Under the pieces are notes generated by a model that saw only the letters and a program-made list of their open reading frames with translations, ran no database searches and had not been told where the DNA came from. From Streptococcus ilei (GTDB lineage Bacteria; Bacillota; Bacilli; Lactobacillales; Streptococcaceae), in contig NC_022584.1 of assembly GCF_000479335.1 (NCBI RefSeq), positions 1,674,001 through 1,738,000 of the forward strand: DNA of 64,000 nucleotides, read 5' to 3'. Position 1 is the first letter of the stretch; each line of letters begins with the position of its first letter. This document shows, one piece after another, positions 29,945-38,540 of this stretch. A program made the position numbers and the translations under genes.

Positions 29945-32900
29945 GTGGTTGATGTAAATCGTTTTAAAAGTATGCAAATCACCCTAGCTTCTCCAAGCAA
30001 GGTCCGTTCATGGTCTTATGGAGAGGTCAAGAAACCTGAAACAATCAACTACCGTACATTGAAACCAGAACGTGAAGGTCTCTTTGATGAAGTCATCTTT
30101 GGTCCTACAAAAGACTGGGAATGTGCGTGTGGAAAATACAAACGAATCCGTTACAAAGGGATTGTTTGTGACCGCTGTGGTGTGGAAGTAACACGTGCCA
30201 AGGTTCGTCGTGAACGAATGGGGCATATCGAGTTGAAAGCTCCTGTATCACACATCTGGTACTTCAAAGGAATCCCTTCTCGTATGGGATTGACCTTGGA
30301 CATGAGTCCTCGTGCCCTTGAAGAAGTCATCTACTTCGCAGCTTACGTGGTTATCGATCCAAAAGATACACCGCTTGAGCACAAATCCATCATGACAGAA
30401 CGCGAATACCGTGAACGCTTGCGTGAATACGGACCAGGTTCCTTTGTTGCCAAGATGGGGGCAGAAGCGATCCAAGACCTCTTGAAACAAGTGGATTTGG
30501 AAGCTGAAATTGCTGTCTTGAAAGAAGAATTGAAGACTGCAACTGGTCAAAAACGTGTGAAGGCTGTTCGCCGTTTGGATGTCTTAGATGCCTTCTACAA
30601 ATCTGGAAACAAACCAGAATGGATGGTTCTCAACATCCTTCCTGTTATTCCACCAGATCTTCGTCCGATGGTCCAATTGGATGGTGGCCGTTTTGCTGCC
30701 TCTGACTTGAACGACCTTTACCGTCGTGTGATCAACCGGAACAACCGTTTGGCTCGTTTGCTTGAGTTGAATGCTCCTGGTATCATTGTGCAAAACGAAA
30801 AACGGATGCTTCAAGAAGCGGTTGACGCTTTGATTGACAATGGCCGTCGAGGTCGTCCGATCACAGGACCAGGTAGCCGTCCACTTAAATCATTGAGCCA
30901 CATGCTCAAAGGGAAACAAGGACGCTTCCGTCAAAACTTGCTCGGGAAACGGGTAGACTTCTCAGGACGTTCCGTTATCGCCGTTGGTCCAACCCTTAAG
31001 ATGTACCAATGTGGTGTGCCACGTGAAATGGCCATCGAGCTTTTCAAACCATTTGTCATGCGTGAAATCGTTGCGCGTGATATCGTGCAAAACGTCAAAG
31101 CCGCTAAACGCTTGGTGGAACGTGGCGATGAGCGTATCTGGGATATCCTAGAAGAAGTCATCAAAGAACACCCAGTTCTCTTGAACCGCGCACCGACCCT
31201 CCACCGCCTGGGGATCCAAGCCTTCGAGCCAGTCTTGATTGACGGGAAAGCTCTTCGCTTGCACCCACTTGTCTGTGAAGCCTACAACGCCGACTTTGAC
31301 GGTGACCAAATGGCCATCCACGTACCGCTTTCAGAAGAAGCCCAAGCAGAAGCCCGTATCTTGATGCTGGCTGCTGAGCACATCTTGAACCCGAAAGATG
31401 GTAAACCAGTTGTTACCCCATCTCAGGATATGGTCTTGGGGAACTACTACCTTACTATGGAAGAAGCTGGTCGTGAAGGCGAAGGAATGGTCTTCAAAGA
31501 CCGCGATGAAGCGGTCATGGCCCTTCGCAATGGTTATGTTCACTTGCATACACGTGTCGGAATTGCGACGGATAGCTTGAACAAACCATGGACAGAAGCT
31601 CAACAACACAAGATTCTCTTGACAACAGTTGGTAAGATTCTCTTTAACGATATCATGCCTGCAGAACTTCCATACCTCCAAGAGCCAAATAATGCCAACT
31701 TGACAGAAGGTGTTCCAGCTAAGTACTTCTTGGAGCCTGGTCAAGATGTCAAAGTGGCGATTGAACAATTGGAATTAAACGTTCCATTCAAGAAGAAAAA
31801 TCTTGGAAATATCATCGCGGAAATCTTCAAACGCTTCCGTACAACAGAAACATCTGCTTTCTTGGACCGTTTGAAAGACTTAGGTTACCACCACTCAACC
31901 CTTGCTGGTTTGACAGTGGGGATTGCCGATATTCCAGTTGTTGAAGATAAGGCTGAAATCATTGAAGAATCTCACAAACGTGTAGAACAAATCACCAAAC
32001 AGTTCCGTAAAGGGATGATTACAGATGATGAGCGTTACAATGCCGTTACAGCTGAATGGCGTGCAGCACGTGAGAAATTGGAAAAACGCTTGGTAGATAA
32101 CCAAGATCCGAAGAATCCAATCGTTATGATGATGGACTCTGGAGCTCGTGGTAACATCTCAAACTTCTCACAGCTTGCCGGTATGCGTGGTTTGATGGCT
32201 GCTCCAAACGGACGGATTATGGAATTGCCGATCCTTTCAAACTTCCGCGAAGGTTTGTCAGTACTCGAAATGTTCTTCTCTACTCACGGTGCTCGTAAAG
32301 GGATGACCGATACGGCCCTCAAGACAGCCGACTCAGGTTACTTGACACGTCGTTTGGTTGATGTTGCCCAAGACGTCATTATCCGTGAGGATGACTGTGG
32401 AACTGACCGTGGACTCGTGATCCGTGCGATTACCGATGGCAAAGAAATGATTGAACCATTGGAAGAGCGTTTAACAGGTCGTTATACGAAGAAATCTGTC
32501 AAACATCCTGAAACAGGTGCAGTCATTGTTGGTCCAGATACTTTGATTTCAGAAGACCTAGCACGTGAAATTGTCAATGCTGGTGTCGAAGAAGTAACTA
32601 TCCGCTCCGTATTTACATGTAACACTCGTCATGGGGTCTGCCGTCACTGTTATGGTATCAACTTGGCGACTGGTGATGCGGTTGAAGTTGGTGAAGCAGT
32701 CGGAACCATCGCTGCCCAATCTATCGGGGAACCTGGTACACAGCTTACAATGCGTACCTTCCACACGGGTGGGGTTGCCTCAAATACCGATATCACTCAG
32801 GGTCTTCCTCGTGTCCAAGAAATCTTTGAAGCCCGCAATCCTAAAGGGGAAGCGGTCATCACAGAAGTCAAAGGACAAGTTACAGCAATCGAAGAAGATG

Positions 32901-33598
32901 CTTCAACTCGTACTAAGAAAGTCTTCGTTAAAGGTGAAACTGGCGAAGGCGAATACGTGGTACCATTTACAGCCCGTATGCGTGTAGAGGTTGGCGATCA
33001 AATCTCTCGTGGTGCAGCATTGACAGAAGGTTCAATCCAACCAAAACGTCTCCTTGCTGTACGTGATGTCTTATCAGTTGAAACTTACCTCCTTGCGGAA
33101 GTACAAAAAGTATACCGTAGCCAAGGGGTAGAAATCGGTGACAAACACATCGAGGTAATGGTGCGTCAAATGATCCGTAAGGTTCGTGTTATGGATCCAG
33201 GAGATACAGACCTTCTCATGGGTACCCTCATGGATATTACAGACTTTACAGATGCTAACCGTGATGTGGTCATTTCTGGTGGGGTTCCTGCAACGGCTCG
33301 TCCAGTCCTTATGGGGATCACCAAGGCCTCTCTTGAAACCAATAGTTTCTTGTCAGCGGCTTCCTTCCAGGAAACAACTCGTGTCCTCACTGACGCAGCG
33401 ATTCGCGGTAAGAAAGACCATCTCCTTGGACTCAAGGAAAATGTTATCATTGGTAAGATTATTCCTGCTGGTACAGGTATGGCTCGTTACCGTAACTTGG
33501 AACCACAAGCAGTCAATGAAGTCGAAATTATCGAAGAAGTTCCTGTTACAGAAGAAGCAACTGAAACTGTTGAACCAATTGTAGTGGAAGAAAATTAA
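29945..33598 (+). CDS. rpoC: RNA polymerase beta-prime subunit
   Basis: The beta-prime subunit, 1217 residues. The N-terminal zinc finger is [20 protein letters not shown] (about residues 60-80), the catalytic magnesium site is [12 protein letters not shown], and the second zinc site includes [13 protein letters not shown]. Translation begins at GTG (29945) after GAAAGGTAAG. The C-terminus is acidic. It is co-transcribed with rpoB and ends at a strong terminator. Confidence 0.99.
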
Positions 33599-33640: not shown

Positions 33641-33983
33641 ATGCCTAAAAATAACCATATAGGCACCGCTTTTTCCTATAATATCAGTTTAAAAATATGC
33701 GCAAAAATAAATATATATTTAAAATAATGAATACTTTAGTAATGAAAATGAAACTTCATAAACGTTTGAATGTTTAAAAAAAATAGTATAAAAACCAGCT
33801 ATTTCAAGGGTTCTAAGGGTTCGAAAGATTCGAATGTTACATATAAATTACGGATTATTAAAATTCGATTAAATGTATTACGAAAGCATTGAGATAGTTT
33901 GACTTTTGAAGCTATTGAAGGTAGAATGGATGGGAAAAGCGTTGTCGATTTTGTTAAAAAATTCACAAGATTAAAAAGGTGAG
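33641..33983 (+). promoter_or_regulatory. AT-rich region upstream of the polysaccharide operon
   Basis: About 340 nt with no credible gene and clearly higher A+T than its surroundings. It contains many TATA-like hexamers, so no single promoter stands out; one TATAAT is at 33678-33683. A repeated motif TTCGAA-AGA-TTCGAA lies at 33820-33834, and AAGGGTTC is directly repeated just before it. A long untranslated leader or a silencer/activator target is possible. The base composition could also mark acquired DNA. Confidence 0.4.
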
Positions 33984-35138
33984 ATGATGAAAAAGATTAA
34001 AGTGATGGTTGTTTTTGGAACGCGCCCAGAAGCGATTAAAATGGCTCCCCTGGTTTTAGAGCTTCAAAAGCAAAGTGAGACCTTTGAAACGATTACAGTA
34101 GTGACTGCTCAGCATCGTCAAATGTTAGATCAAGTGCTAGAGACCTTCCGTATTCAACCGGATTACGATCTAGATATTATGGGGAAAAACCAATCTCTTC
34201 TAGATATTACGGCTAAAATCCTTGAAAAATTTGACCCAGTCGTGAAAGAAATGCAACCGGATATGATTTTGGTCCATGGGGACACAACGACGACTTTTGC
34301 AGCCAGTCTTGTTGCTTTTTATAATCAAGTCCGTATAGGTCATGTAGAGGCGGGGCTCAGAACTTTCGATAAGTATTCGCCTTTCCCTGAGGAAATGAAC
34401 CGTCAAATGACGGATAACCTAGCAGATCTCTATTTTGCCCCAACCAGTGAAAGCAAGGCCAATCTTCTCATGGAACATCATCCAGAGTCGTCCATTTTCA
34501 TTACGGGGAATACGGCGATTGATGCCCTGCGATTAACCGTGCAAGAGAATTATCACCACCAGGTGCTTGATCAGTTAGATCCACAGAAGAAACTGGTCCT
34601 AGTGACCATGCACCGTCGGGAAAACCAAGGCCAACCGATGCGAGCTGTCTTTGCTGCCTTGAGAGAAATGGTAGATGCTCATCCGGAGTTGGAGGTTGTT
34701 TATCCAGTCCACCTCAGTCCGGCTGTTCAAGAGGCGGCTAAGGACATCTTAGGAGATCACGACCGTATTCATTTGATTGCTCCTTTGGACGTCTTTGATT
34801 TTCATAACCTAGCATCGAGAAGTTACTTTATTATGTCTGATTCGGGAGGAGTTCAGGAGGAGGCCCCTTCCTTAGGCAAGCCTGTCTTAGTCCTTCGGGA
34901 TACGACCGAACGTCCAGAAGGTGTCAAAGCTGGAACTTTAAAATTGGTCGGAACGGATCCTGAGCGCGTCAAGGAAGAAATGACGGCTCTGTTGACGGAC
35001 CCAGATCTGTATCAAAAAATGGCTTCAGCTCGAAATCCATATGGAGATGGGAAGGCATCTGAGCGGATTGTTCAAGCTATTCAGCACTATTATGGCCTCG
35101 TTGACTCGGTATCTGAATTTATGGAGGGAGAGATTTAG
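33984..35138 (+). CDS. wecB: UDP-N-acetylglucosamine 2-epimerase (non-hydrolysing)
   Basis: A cytoplasmic enzyme of 384 residues that interconverts UDP-GlcNAc and UDP-ManNAc. Family marks are FGTRPEAIKMAPL (10-22), VHGDTTTTFAASL, IGHVEAGLRT, VTMHRREN and SDSGGVQEEAPS. ATG occurs twice (33984, 33987) after AGGTGAG; the second has better spacing. It heads a tight operon with a GT2 synthase and a GH8 hydrolase (2 to 9 nt between most genes), so the UDP-ManNAc probably feeds a polysaccharide made by the neighbours and not general wall teichoic acid or capsule synthesis. The symbol wecB (mnaA) is used for the enzyme family; its role here is inferred. Confidence 0.93.
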   Translation: MMKKIKVMVVFGTRPEAIKMAPLVLELQKQSETFETITVVTAQHRQMLDQVLETFRIQPDYDLDIMGKNQSLLDITAKILEKFDPVVKEMQPDMILVHGDTTTTFAASLVAFYNQVRIGHVEAGLRTFDKYSPFPEEMNRQMTDNLADLYFAPTSESKANLLMEHHPESSIFITGNTAIDALRLTVQENYHHQVLDQLDPQKKLVLVTMHRRENQGQPMRAVFAALREMVDAHPELEVVYPVHLSPAVQEAAKDILGDHDRIHLIAPLDVFDFHNLASRSYFIMSDSGGVQEEAPSLGKPVLVLRDTTERPEGVKAGTLKLVGTDPERVKEEMTALLTDPDLYQKMASARNPYGDGKASERIVQAIQHYYGLVDSVSEFMEGEI

Positions 35139-35140
35139 GA

Positions 35141-35929
35141 ATGAAAAAAAGGAATCATTTAGGAGACTGGATGCTTATTTTAGTCGGCTTTGTATTGGCC
35201 GTCCTGATATACTGTCTATTCTTTGCACGGGAAATTATTATTGAGGAAGCTCTCTTTCTTGTGTTAGCCTTGTTTGCCTCTCTTGTCTTATCCAATTTGC
35301 TGCTGACCTGGACGATTTTAATTTCAGTCGGTTTAGGAATTGTCTTTCTGGTAGCAGGAGTCGTGTATATCCCTGCAAACCAGGCACTGTTATTGCTTTT
35401 CTCTTTCCCTATTCTGATTGGAATACTATCAAAAATTCGCTACTATTTATTTAAAGAAGTTGCAAAGGTTCAAAACCAAGAAGAAGACGCTGAAGTTGCC
35501 TACCGTGGCTTGCTGGAACACATGGGTGTTCAACAGGAACAGAAATTACAAGCCCTCTTGATCCATTGGTCTCATGAGGAACTCTTCTATCAAATTCATC
35601 CTCGTGAGTACAATCGGACGCTGAACCAAATTCATTATCTGATTGGCCACCATTTGATACAAGATGAGAGACTTTATTATGTTTCAGATGGCAATTTTCT
35701 AGTACTTACGAATAGTCAGCAACGAAATTTGCAAGAATATTATCAGTTGTATTTAAAAAATCAATTGGAATCTTTGGTCTTTAAGGGAGAAGACGGTAAT
35801 CAAGCGATTCAATTTCAAAAAGGATACTTGGTGGTGGATTCGACCAATCGGACGAAATTCCATAGCTACCAGGAAGCTATTAGTAACTTGAAATGTCAAC
35901 TTGAAACGGATATTATTGTGGAATATTAG
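35141..35929 (+). CDS. membrane protein with degenerate GGDEF domain (YdaK-like)
   Basis: A 262-residue protein with four membrane helices (about 10-28, 33-52, 54-76, 82-100) and a cytoplasmic domain of about 150 residues. I read this domain as a degenerate GGDEF fold. The elements in order are a first strand (QALLIHW), two helices, ERLYYVSDGNFLVLT where SDGNF (182-186) replaces GGDEF, and FQKGYLVVDS followed by a helix, as at the end of diguanylate cyclases. Catalytic residues and the RXXD inhibitory site are missing. B. subtilis YdaK has the same layout and sits in an exopolysaccharide operon. The gene is 2 nt after wecB. The likely role is a regulatory subunit of the synthase. The fold assignment is from pattern reading only. 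Confidence 0.62.
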   Translation: MKKRNHLGDWMLILVGFVLAVLIYCLFFAREIIIEEALFLVLALFASLVLSNLLLTWTILISVGLGIVFLVAGVVYIPANQALLLLFSFPILIGILSKIRYYLFKEVAKVQNQEEDAEVAYRGLLEHMGVQQEQKLQALLIHWSHEELFYQIHPREYNRTLNQIHYLIGHHLIQDERLYYVSDGNFLVLTNSQQRNLQEYYQLYLKNQLESLVFKGEDGNQAIQFQKGYLVVDSTNRTKFHSYQEAISNLKCQLETDIIVEY

Positions 35930-35938
35930 GAGGAACCG

Positions 35939-36181
35939 ATGACTCTTACAAATCTATTTTTTGGGCTAGCCTTAGGGATTAGTCTATTCTTTGCGGTGTG
36001 CTTCTGTGCATTATTCATTGCCTACTTGGTCATCTACCATCGGGTAAACAAAAACTTTAAGGCGGTGGACCATGATCAGTCAAATTTTAATGATTTTCAC
36101 CTTGATTTCTATCTGGTTATCTCTAGCCTGGGGCTTGGTAATCTTGATTTCAGCGGTTCAATTCTGGTTGAAACACAGTGA
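35939..36181 (+). CDS. small membrane protein overlapping the synthase gene
   Basis: An 80-residue protein with one clear N-terminal membrane helix (about 5-33) and a charged segment (YHRVNKNFKAVDHDQ). The start has an excellent ribosome site (AGGAGGAACCG), so translation is likely. Its last 37 codons overlap the GT2 gene in another frame, and that part may be a by-product of the synthase N-terminus. Small membrane proteins partner processive GT2 synthases (for example IcaD, PgaD and the Pss small subunits), so an accessory subunit is the natural guess. I do not recognise a family. A frameshift from a longer form cannot be excluded. Confidence 0.55.
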   Translation: MTLTNLFFGLALGISLFFAVCFCALFIAYLVIYHRVNKNFKAVDHDQSNFNDFHLDFYLVISSLGLGNLDFSGSILVETQ

Positions 36182-37382
36182 TTTTCGAGTGGATACGAGC
36201 CCGCTTCTCTATTATCCTAAAGTAACCATTGTGGTACCTGCCCACAATGAAGATGTGGTCATTGCTCAAACTGCTAAGGCGATTTTGGATATGAATTACC
36301 CTCATGATCGTGTGGAGTTGCTTCTCTTTGCAGATAACTGCTCGGATCGTACCTATGAGGAGTGTTTGGCTGTCAAGGCCCTTCCGGAATACGCTGGACG
36401 TGACGTGACCATTATTGACCGTACCGGTACAGGTGGGAAAGCTGGAGTATTAAATGATGCCTTGAAGATGGCGACAGGAGATTATATCTGTGTCTATGAT
36501 GCAGATGCTATGCCTGAGAAAAATGCTCTTTATTTCTTGGTTAAGGAAGTTCTTAAAGATCCAGAACGTCATGTGGCTTCATTTGGACGCAATAAGACGA
36601 GAAATGCTAACCAGAACTTCTTGACGCGCTGTATCAACCAAGAAATCGTCGTGACCCAACGGGTTCACCACGTCGGGATGTGGAATCTCTTCAAAATCGG
36701 ACGGATTCCAGGGACCAACTTTATTATCCAAACAGAATTTGTCAAAAGTATCGGTGGTTGGAAGAATGGTGCCTTGACGGAAGATACGGATATTTCCTTC
36801 AAGATTATGCAAAGCGGAAAACTGATCGCCTTGGCTTACAACTCGGAAGCCTTCCAACAAGAGCCAGAGACCCTAAAAACCTACTACATGCAACGGAAAC
36901 GTTGGGCAAAAGGGAACTACGAGGTTGTACTTTCCAACTTTAAACACTTATTCGGAAAAGGGAACTGGCGGGTAAAACTAGAGGTCTTCAACTATTCATG
37001 TATTTTCTTCTGGTTTAATGCAGCGATTGTCTTGTCAGACTTGATTTTCTTTGCCAATGTCCTTGCCATGTTTATCCATCTCTTTGCTCCGGGTGTACAG
37101 ATTCCTTTTGCTTTTGACTCCGAAAATATCTACATTGCCCAATTGATGCTCTTTAACTGGGTGCTAATGATTGGTTTGTATTTGTTGCAAATCAACATTG
37201 CCATGGCTTCTCAGTTTGGTCAGGCGACGGTGAAACAGATTTGGTTGGCCCTAGCAGCCTACTTTAGCTATTCCCAACTCTTTATCATTGTTTCGATTGA
37301 TTCGATTTCATCCATCATCATGGATAAATTGCTTCACCGTGAAGGAACCAAGTGGGTGAAAACGAAACGGTTTGCTGGTTAG
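36072..37382 (+). CDS. processive GT2 glycosyltransferase (polysaccharide synthase)
   Basis: A membrane glycosyltransferase of 436 residues like IcaA/PgaC/BcsA cores. An N-terminal helix (about 4-33) precedes the GT-A domain with PAHNE (56-60), FADN, DAD (143-145), TED (236-238) and the processivity motif QRKRW (274-278). Three to four C-terminal helices would form the export channel. It should polymerise a beta-linked hexose or hexosamine from a UDP-sugar and pass it through the membrane. The adjacent epimerase suggests ManNAc as the sugar. There is no PilZ domain. GGCGGTGG is the ribosome site, inside the small upstream ORF. Confidence 0.88.
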   Translation: MISQILMIFTLISIWLSLAWGLVILISAVQFWLKHSDFRVDTSPLLYYPKVTIVVPAHNEDVVIAQTAKAILDMNYPHDRVELLLFADNCSDRTYEECLAVKALPEYAGRDVTIIDRTGTGGKAGVLNDALKMATGDYICVYDADAMPEKNALYFLVKEVLKDPERHVASFGRNKTRNANQNFLTRCINQEIVVTQRVHHVGMWNLFKIGRIPGTNFIIQTEFVKSIGGWKNGALTEDTDISFKIMQSGKLIALAYNSEAFQQEPETLKTYYMQRKRWAKGNYEVVLSNFKHLFGKGNWRVKLEVFNYSCIFFWFNAAIVLSDLIFFANVLAMFIHLFAPGVQIPFAFDSENIYIAQLMLFNWVLMIGLYLLQINIAMASQFGQATVKQIWLALAAYFSYSQLFIIVSIDSISSIIMDKLLHREGTKWVKTKRFAG

Positions 37383-37390
37383 GAGGACTT

Positions 37391-38494
37391 ATGAGAACAA
37401 AAAAAATGAAATATTTATGGTTTGTGGTCATCCTGGCAGTCTTTTGTTTGACTCTCTTCTTGGCTCGGACAAGAAGCAAGGTGGAGATGCGGAACCGCCT
37501 CTATCGTCAATGGACGGAACACTACCTCGTGACGGATGGAAAACAGTCCTATGTTCGTACGACTAACAGTGACCAAGAAACGGTTGTCTTATCAGAAGCG
37601 CAAGGTTATGGCATGCTAATCACAGTAGAGGCTGCCAAGAAAGACCTAGCCAATCAAGAGGATTTTGACCGTCTGTATCGGTATTATCAAAACAATCGCT
37701 TAGACGATACCCAATTAATGGCTTGGAAACAAATCATCAAAAAAGGGGAGCTTTCATCTGAGCATCAAAATGCGACGGATGGTGATCTATATATAGCCTA
37801 TGCCTTGATGGAGGCAGCAAAACAGTGGCCTGAAAAAGGTAAAGGCTATCAACAGCAAGCCAAGGCTATCTTGGACGATATTCTCAAGTACAACTACAAT
37901 GAGACAACGGGTGTCTTGACCGTTGGGAATTGGGCCAATCAAGATTCCGAATTCTATCACTTGATGAGAACCTCTGATACCCTTCCATCCTTTTTCCAAT
38001 CCTTCTATGAGTTGACTGGAAATGAACAATGGTTAAGTATTAAAGAGAAGATGTTGGCCCAGCTTGACGCTATCAGTTCACAAACTAAAACAGGCCTTCT
38101 GCCAGACTTTATGTGGGTAGATGAACAAGGAGCGCGTGTAGCGGATCCAGATACCATCGAATCCAAGTACGATGGTGCTTATTCTTACAATGCTTGTCGT
38201 CTGCCATACAACTTGGCTCAAAGCCAGGACAAGACCAGTCAAAAATTGGGCAAGAAGATGCTGGATTTCTTCATGAAGCAACGGAATATCTATGCAGGCT
38301 ATGATCTGAAAGGCAATGCCCTTCATCAGTACCAAGCAGCTAGCTTCATTGCTCCGGTATCTTATGCGGCTGAAAATGGAGATGGCTATCTCAAATTGGT
38401 GCAGCAGAACAAGTTTATCTTTATGCAAGATCTATCAACAGAAAATTATTACGATGCAACCATGACAACCATGATTGCCCTTCAATTGTTCTAA
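37391..38494 (+). CDS. GH8 family glycoside hydrolase, membrane-anchored
   Basis: A family 8 endo-hydrolase of 367 residues (the cellulase/chitosanase/BcsZ group). An uncleaved-looking N-terminal helix (about 7-25) anchors it outside the membrane. E69 in LSEAQGYGM is the family general acid, and D130 in NATDGDLYIAYALM matches the second conserved motif. I placed the start at 37391 after AGGAGG; the open frame extends back into the GT2 gene. GH8 enzymes accompany synthase-dependent polysaccharides (BcsZ, PssZ, YdaJ) and trim or release the polymer. Its specificity here is unknown. A strong terminator follows, making it the last gene of the operon. Confidence 0.88.
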   Translation: MRTKKMKYLWFVVILAVFCLTLFLARTRSKVEMRNRLYRQWTEHYLVTDGKQSYVRTTNSDQETVVLSEAQGYGMLITVEAAKKDLANQEDFDRLYRYYQNNRLDDTQLMAWKQIIKKGELSSEHQNATDGDLYIAYALMEAAKQWPEKGKGYQQQAKAILDDILKYNYNETTGVLTVGNWANQDSEFYHLMRTSDTLPSFFQSFYELTGNEQWLSIKEKMLAQLDAISSQTKTGLLPDFMWVDEQGARVADPDTIESKYDGAYSYNACRLPYNLAQSQDKTSQKLGKKMLDFFMKQRNIYAGYDLKGNALHQYQAASFIAPVSYAAENGDGYLKLVQQNKFIFMQDLSTENYYDATMTTMIALQLF

Positions 38495-38510
38495 TGGATC
38501 ATCATTTGAA

Positions 38511-38540
38511 AAACTGAGAACTTTAGGTTCTCAGTTTTTT
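38511..38540 (+). terminator. terminator of the polysaccharide operon
   Basis: AAACTGAGAAC pairs with GTTCTCAGTTT, followed by further T. Confidence 0.88.

Follow-up and report, generated by a model that had tools for sequence, protein, structure and literature searches.

We analyzed a window of 64,000 nucleotides from Streptococcus ilei (NC_022584.1, positions 1,674,001 to 1,738,000), whose genome is 1.99 Mb in one contig. The closest named genomes are those of S. australis, S. parasanguinis, and S. rubneri. Our subject is a five-gene operon (genes A-E) that is predicted to encode a synthase for an exopolysaccharide, together with its partners. An initial annotation, made from the sequence of the window alone, had proposed an operon of five tightly spaced genes and a terminator at their end. 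We found all of these (Table 1). The reading frames are all on the + strand within 33984-38494, and the gaps between them are 2 (A-B), 9 (B-C), -110 (C-D), and 8 (D-E) nucleotides.

Table 1. The operon and its flanking signals, by position in the window (TM, transmembrane; GT2 and GH8, families of glycosyltransferases and glycoside hydrolases).
Feature	Position	Strand	Basis or remark
Promoter-like TTGACT-17-TAGAAT	33899..33927	+	Motif scan, sigma-70 type; kept in australis, parasanguinis, and rubneri relatives
Gene A, non-hydrolysing UDP-GlcNAc 2-epimerase (WecB/MnaA type)	33984..35138	+	TIGR00236; structure matches 8ahe, 3beo
Gene B, 4-TM protein with a degenerate GGDEF fold, no RxxD, conserved C-terminal LETDIIVEY	35141..35929	+	
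Gene C, one-TM microprotein	35939..36181	+	Conserved part 35939-36076 (46 codons); remainder is read-through, stop lost in this strain
Gene D, processive-type GT2 synthase (predicted)	36072..37382	+	One N-terminal and several C-terminal TM segments
Gene E, membrane-anchored GH8 hydrolase	37391..38494	+	PF01270; PDB matches 5xd0, 1v5c best
Rho-independent terminator hairpin	38508..38540	+	RNA fold -17.5 kcal/mol, z -4.58

Gene D is predicted, from its motifs and its fold, to encode a processive polysaccharide synthase. The 436-amino-acid protein matches Glyco_tranf_2_3 in Pfam (82.7 bits). The motifs that had suggested processivity in the initial annotation held up: DAD (143-145), TED (236-238), and QRxRW are invariant in 12 of 12 aligned GT2s, and K276 of QRKRW is nearly so. 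The protein is also 33% identical to a Listeria-type synthase (437 columns, E = 4e-83), which places it in the PssC family. (We treated locus L101 as Listeria-type on account of two features, a DKDDA hairpin and an RTSD motif.) Structural comparison gave a mixed answer. Hyaluronan and cellulose synthases (HAS and BcsA) matched over most of the model, but the top match was a mannosyltransferase (6yv7), which we take not to be a polymerase, and this counts against a processive enzyme. GT2 might instead be non-processive and simply attach N-acetylmannosamine (ManNAc) to a lipid or a wall polymer, with the GH8 hydrolase editing the product. We consider this quite improbable, given the invariant QRxRW motif, the bundle of C-terminal TM segments, the extent of the HAS/BcsA match, the similarity to a PssC, and the presence of a GH8 partner, as in bcs operons.

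Which sugar would be polymerized? Gene A clearly belongs to the WecB/MnaA epimerases: it scores 521.8 bits against the wecB model TIGR00236, whose curated cutoff is 210.15, and 419.1 bits against Epimerase_2 in Pfam, and its nearest solved structures (8ahe and 3beo) match with E = 4e-159. The initial annotation saw this gene as a dedicated supply of UDP-ManNAc, and its tie to GT2 is strict in streptococci. In all 32 streptococcal carriers of GT2, a homologue of gene A (61-100% identity) lies 931-1365 nucleotides from GT2 on the same strand, while just 15 of the 115 non-carriers in our draw of the genus have an epimerase, in each case 54-59% identical to gene A. Across the order, an epimerase is present somewhere in 76 of 76 genomes with this family of GT2, as compared to 128 of 219 other genomes. 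The same holds within families (f9, 20/20 vs. 17/27; f3, 9/9 vs. 20/36; f6, 2/2 vs. 18/25), although these counts were made by hand and the species are not independent. The polymer of Listeria contains ManNAc and galactose in a 2:1 ratio, according to the available text of PMC7479077. Because of the epimerase linkage, both among carriers and order-wide, and the ManNAc in the Listeria polymer, UDP-ManNAc is the likeliest donor for GT2. The linkage supports a ManNAc polymer, short of proof.

Alternatively, GT2 might make a chain of N-acetylglucosamine (GlcNAc) or glucose, similar to poly-N-acetylglucosamine, chitin, or cellulose, and the epimerase might serve a side branch or another pathway. 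The best match of GT2 in NCBIfam is PgaC_IcaA, at 125.4 bits (far under the cutoff of 422.3), and the GH8 protein is nearest to structures of chitosanases and glucanases. Also, only 3 of the 16 non-streptococcal loci in the same clade (clade I, described below) have an epimerase in the DNA that we examined (L052, L055, and L115), and the other 13 have none nearby. Against this, the linkage is strict in the streptococci and recurs outside of them: genome G229 has another such neighbourhood, judging by coordinates, and an epimerase is present in the more distant loci L106 and L107 as well. Furthermore, the nearest characterised synthase has ManNAc in its polymer, and we found no candidate for a PssB-like (DUF2334) deacetylase in the loci that we searched. 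Overall, we consider a GlcNAc or glucose chain unlikely. Locus L106, from another family of the order, has a four-gene operon (L106:4752-10152) of DUF2334, GT2, epimerase, and GH8 genes, which is a further example of an epimerase linked to a GT2 of this type.

A ManNAc polymer from this operon would be separate from the capsule, as had been proposed. The genome has a distinct capsule-type locus (L061, G000:C1:1416000-1434000) with a flippase (PF01943), an initiating transferase (PF02397), a WecG/TagA-type transferase (PF03808), an IspD-type cytidylyltransferase, and a polymerase candidate that scores below the Wzy_C cutoff. This locus has its own UDP-GlcNAc 2-epimerase, the second in the genome, which rules out gene A as the sole source of UDP-ManNAc.

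The gene block is more than a chance arrangement: the same gene order recurs in Streptococcus and Lactobacillaceae. GT2 orthologues (at least 69% identity) are present in 32 of the 147 genomes that we drew from the genus. (A 33rd match, in G078, was only 32% identical and was left out.) Carriers include S. sanguinis, S. parasanguinis, S. australis, S. oralis, S. sinensis, S. vestibularis, and S. orisasini, as well as S. hyointestinalis, S. rubneri, and Liquorilactobacillus. By sequence comparison, genes B, C, D, and E (GGDEF-like protein, microprotein, GT2, and GH8) are a conserved set. A tree of 51 GT2s separates clade I (32 rows) from the Listeria-type pss synthases with support of 100/99, and the 17 streptococcal rows cluster together (99/94), next to the lactobacillar ones. 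The tree included the window, 17 of 26 named loci, and 33 of 35 others (L108 and L114 were left out); it was midpoint-rooted, and the program flagged L094, L106, and L113 as long branches. We found no PssA-like, PssB-like (DUF2334), or BcsB-like proteins in any of 40 clade I loci or in the window, while 15 of 16 Listeria-like loci have all three. (In the sixteenth, L106, Pfam detects a DUF2334 protein.) The entire S. ilei genome contains neither BcsB nor DUF2334. In the most distant GT2 group (L111:5614-8635, family f2), there are three genes, for a hydrophobic protein, GT2, and a third protein, and neither of the two partners has a Pfam match above the cutoff.

It is very improbable that the operon is a relic that is inherited but silent or decaying. 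Locus L043 of Streptococcus sp. UBA6071 has just a remnant of GH8 (L043:4820-5120), Marseille-Q5986 has frame breaks in GT2 and GH8 that could be assembly errors (L054:6001-8412), the GT2 match in G164 contains one stop codon, and gene C has lost its stop in the window. But across the 32 streptococcal carriers, GT2 is 69-100% identical and free of internal stops, and the catalytic motifs are kept.

Gene B was described as a four-helix protein with a GGDEF-like domain. The GGDEF fold is present in our structure model, even though searches of Pfam, NCBIfam, and PDB sequences did not detect it and gave only weak or chance-level matches. At the GG(D/E)EF hairpin, the protein from the window has SDGNF, and none of 28 aligned B rows have GG(D/E)EF. 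(The alignment omits L089, whose B is split by a frame break.) At the place that aligns with the RxxD motif of PssE, 0 of 13 streptococcal rows (12 distinct) have the motif, and counting the aligned place only, it is absent from 15 of 15 B rows. Going by these residues, B is unable to make cyclic di-GMP (c-di-GMP), and the streptococcal B proteins are without the known RxxD binding site.

Several observations weigh against such a clean loss. Four of the 28 B rows (L051, L053, L087, and L088) have a literal RxxD, one residue off the PssE register; 14 of 15 non-streptococcal rows have Arg at that place, mostly followed by Glu (RLPxE); RxxD is absent from 2 of 9 PssE-like sequences too; and a GGDEF domain is present in 4 of 34 clade I carriers. 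B proteins may retain some ligand binding at the RxxD-like place. Because the profile of B matched that of the PssE-like rows only weakly (probability of 9%), common descent of B and PssE is not established by sequence. A protein search with B found 417 proteins, and among the matches listed (the best 120 of 417), nearly all were 52-66% identical to the protein from the window and had no assigned name. Streptococcus sp. DD12 has a second, distant copy of B outside the operon (L042:9028-9777; 21% identity, E = 2e-13). GGDEF domains are unusual in Streptococcus. Two of the 46 Streptococcus genomes in our draw from the order have a strong one (G061, E = 3.4e-30; G114, E = 3.9e-33), and neither has this GT2.

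The small membrane protein that had been noted (gene C) is indeed a one-TM protein, but its apparent size of 80 amino acids is peculiar to this strain, as relatives stop at 44-59 amino acids. In 33 of 34 other loci scanned, we found a one-helix protein of that size (none was found in L094; L036, L046, L048, L049, L054, and L058 were not part of the scan), and in the nearest relatives it has 46 amino acids and one helix. In most of these loci, the stop of gene C overlaps the start of GT2 by 1-11 bases. In relatives, the C frame overlaps the GT2 gene by 8 bases before it stops. Here, one change removes that stop (the second codon of GT2 is ATC in the window), and the C frame continues. The extra tail is probably accidental.

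Gene E matches Glyco_hydro_8 in Pfam (112.1 bits) and has a hydrophobic segment at residues 5-29, so the membrane-anchored GH8 of the initial annotation stands, but the suggested likeness to PssZ is doubtful. The best start is ATG 37391, which is preceded by AGGAGG; we rejected GTG 37352 for this reason. The presumed general acid (E69) and D261 are invariant in 12 of 12 sequences. The classical base positions are not conserved: N267 is at the usual place of the Asp in 12 of 12, and E257, which presumably corresponds to E309 of ChoK, is present in 4 of 12. PssZ (6R2M) was not among the 37 PDB matches of gene E at 1e-3, and hhalign against six PssZ-like rows (named by their place and size) gave 37% (E = 3.5e-4, 92 columns). 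CAZy places PssZ in GH126, according to the available text of PMC7479077. The score of gene E against the BcsZ family was 63.8 bits, far under the cutoff of 299.

In the window, the operon is flanked by rpoC (29945-33598) on one side and by a DUF1033 gene on the other, with comG-type genes (identified by eye) beyond the latter. The site varies: the operon is by rpoC in S. australis, S. parasanguinis, and S. sanguinis and is elsewhere in others such as S. oralis. In the promoter region, GTTTGAC and GGTAGAATG are invariant blocks across 7 aligned sequences. Short direct repeats (AAGGGTTCT, AAGGGTTCG, and AAGATTCGA) lie 5' of the promoter, at 33806-33835; they are kept in L033 and L034, degraded in L050, and absent from L035 and L048.

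Putting this together, we estimate a probability of roughly 60% that the operon encodes a minimal, Pss/Yda-like machine for synthase-dependent production of an exopolysaccharide, whose product is most likely a non-capsular polymer based on ManNAc. The epimerase (gene A) would convert UDP-GlcNAc to UDP-ManNAc, as is strongly indicated by its family. Given its motifs, fold, and relatives, GT2 would polymerize UDP-ManNAc and export the growing polymer via a membrane channel of its own. B might be a membrane-bound regulatory or scaffold subunit, probably docked on the synthase, perhaps via its C-terminal tail. C would be a one-helix subunit whose translation is coupled to that of GT2, as suggested by the overlap of stop and start. 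Outside the cell, E might trim or release the polymer, as the GH8 partners of other synthases suggest.

A bolder and more tentative idea, which we would not bet on, is that these proteins form a four-component synthase family (GGDEF-fold protein, microprotein, GT2, and GH8) in which the GGDEF fold was retained as a subunit after c-di-GMP was lost. B would respond to another ligand or to none, the 46-amino-acid microprotein would be essential to the synthase, and its product would be a ManNAc homopolymer, a matrix component that has not yet been reported for commensal streptococci of the mouth. Among titles and abstract openings in the open-licence literature, we found no account of the operon in streptococci. 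For bacteria that colonise teeth early, such as S. sanguinis and S. parasanguinis, the sugars of the matrix are usually attributed to glucans, capsule-like receptor polysaccharides, and DNA. With a conserved synthase operon, these bacteria would have a further candidate polymer.

How does the operon compare to known systems? In the single-synthase capsules of streptococci (HasA and pneumococcal types 3 and 37), a lone GT2-type synthase both assembles the polymer and exports it, but the sugars and the operon partners are different from those here. The bcs operons of the E. coli type share the synthase fold (by structure comparison) and a GH8 protein (BcsZ), and they also encode a small one-TM protein (BcsF) and a GGDEF-like partner (BcsE). 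However, our GT2 is relatively short and has no PilZ domain (no Pfam match), its GH8 is under the BcsZ cutoff, and the genome lacks BcsB. In Bacillus subtilis, the ydaJKLMN operon likewise combines a GH8-type protein, a degenerate GGDEF protein, and a GT2; it also encodes YdaL and YdaN, and it is not known to include an epimerase.

The initial annotation held that the operon has the same parts as pss of Listeria monocytogenes (pssA-E and pssZ). The likeness is real for the GT2, for the 4-TM protein with a degenerate GGDEF domain (PssE, in the available description), for a hydrolase of the (alpha/alpha)6 type, and, by prediction, for the ManNAc in the polymer. But the parts are not the same: PssA, PssB, and the BcsB-like protein are missing, the microprotein is added, RxxD is lost from the streptococcal B, and gene E is GH8 by Pfam. 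Also, the epimerase and the hydrolase are inside the streptococcal operon, whereas the Listeria glycosidase gene, lmo1913, is in the dgc operon (again in the available description). We did not class this as a pss operon because two defining features, the accessory genes and the RxxD receptor, fail. By analogy, it is a Pss/Yda-type synthase operon that would work like Pss but is distinct from pss proper. Besides its GT2, the gts operon of Lactobacillus acidophilus encodes a TM partner, plus a c-di-GMP protein that is degenerate; as described in the available text of PMC6123363, that protein is an EAL protein (PdeB), unlike gene B, and the operon includes no epimerase or endoglucanase. The pel operon of S. 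intermedius is another synthase-dependent exopolysaccharide system in a genus that is mostly without c-di-GMP. In streptococcal Pel, PelD has lost its GGDEF domain (available text of PMC12345266 and PMC7112168), whereas B has retained the fold. Unlike Pel, this operon would be a case of a GGDEF fold that is retained in bacteria without recognisable c-di-GMP enzymes, which could help to reveal how the fold serves a synthase beyond ligand sensing.
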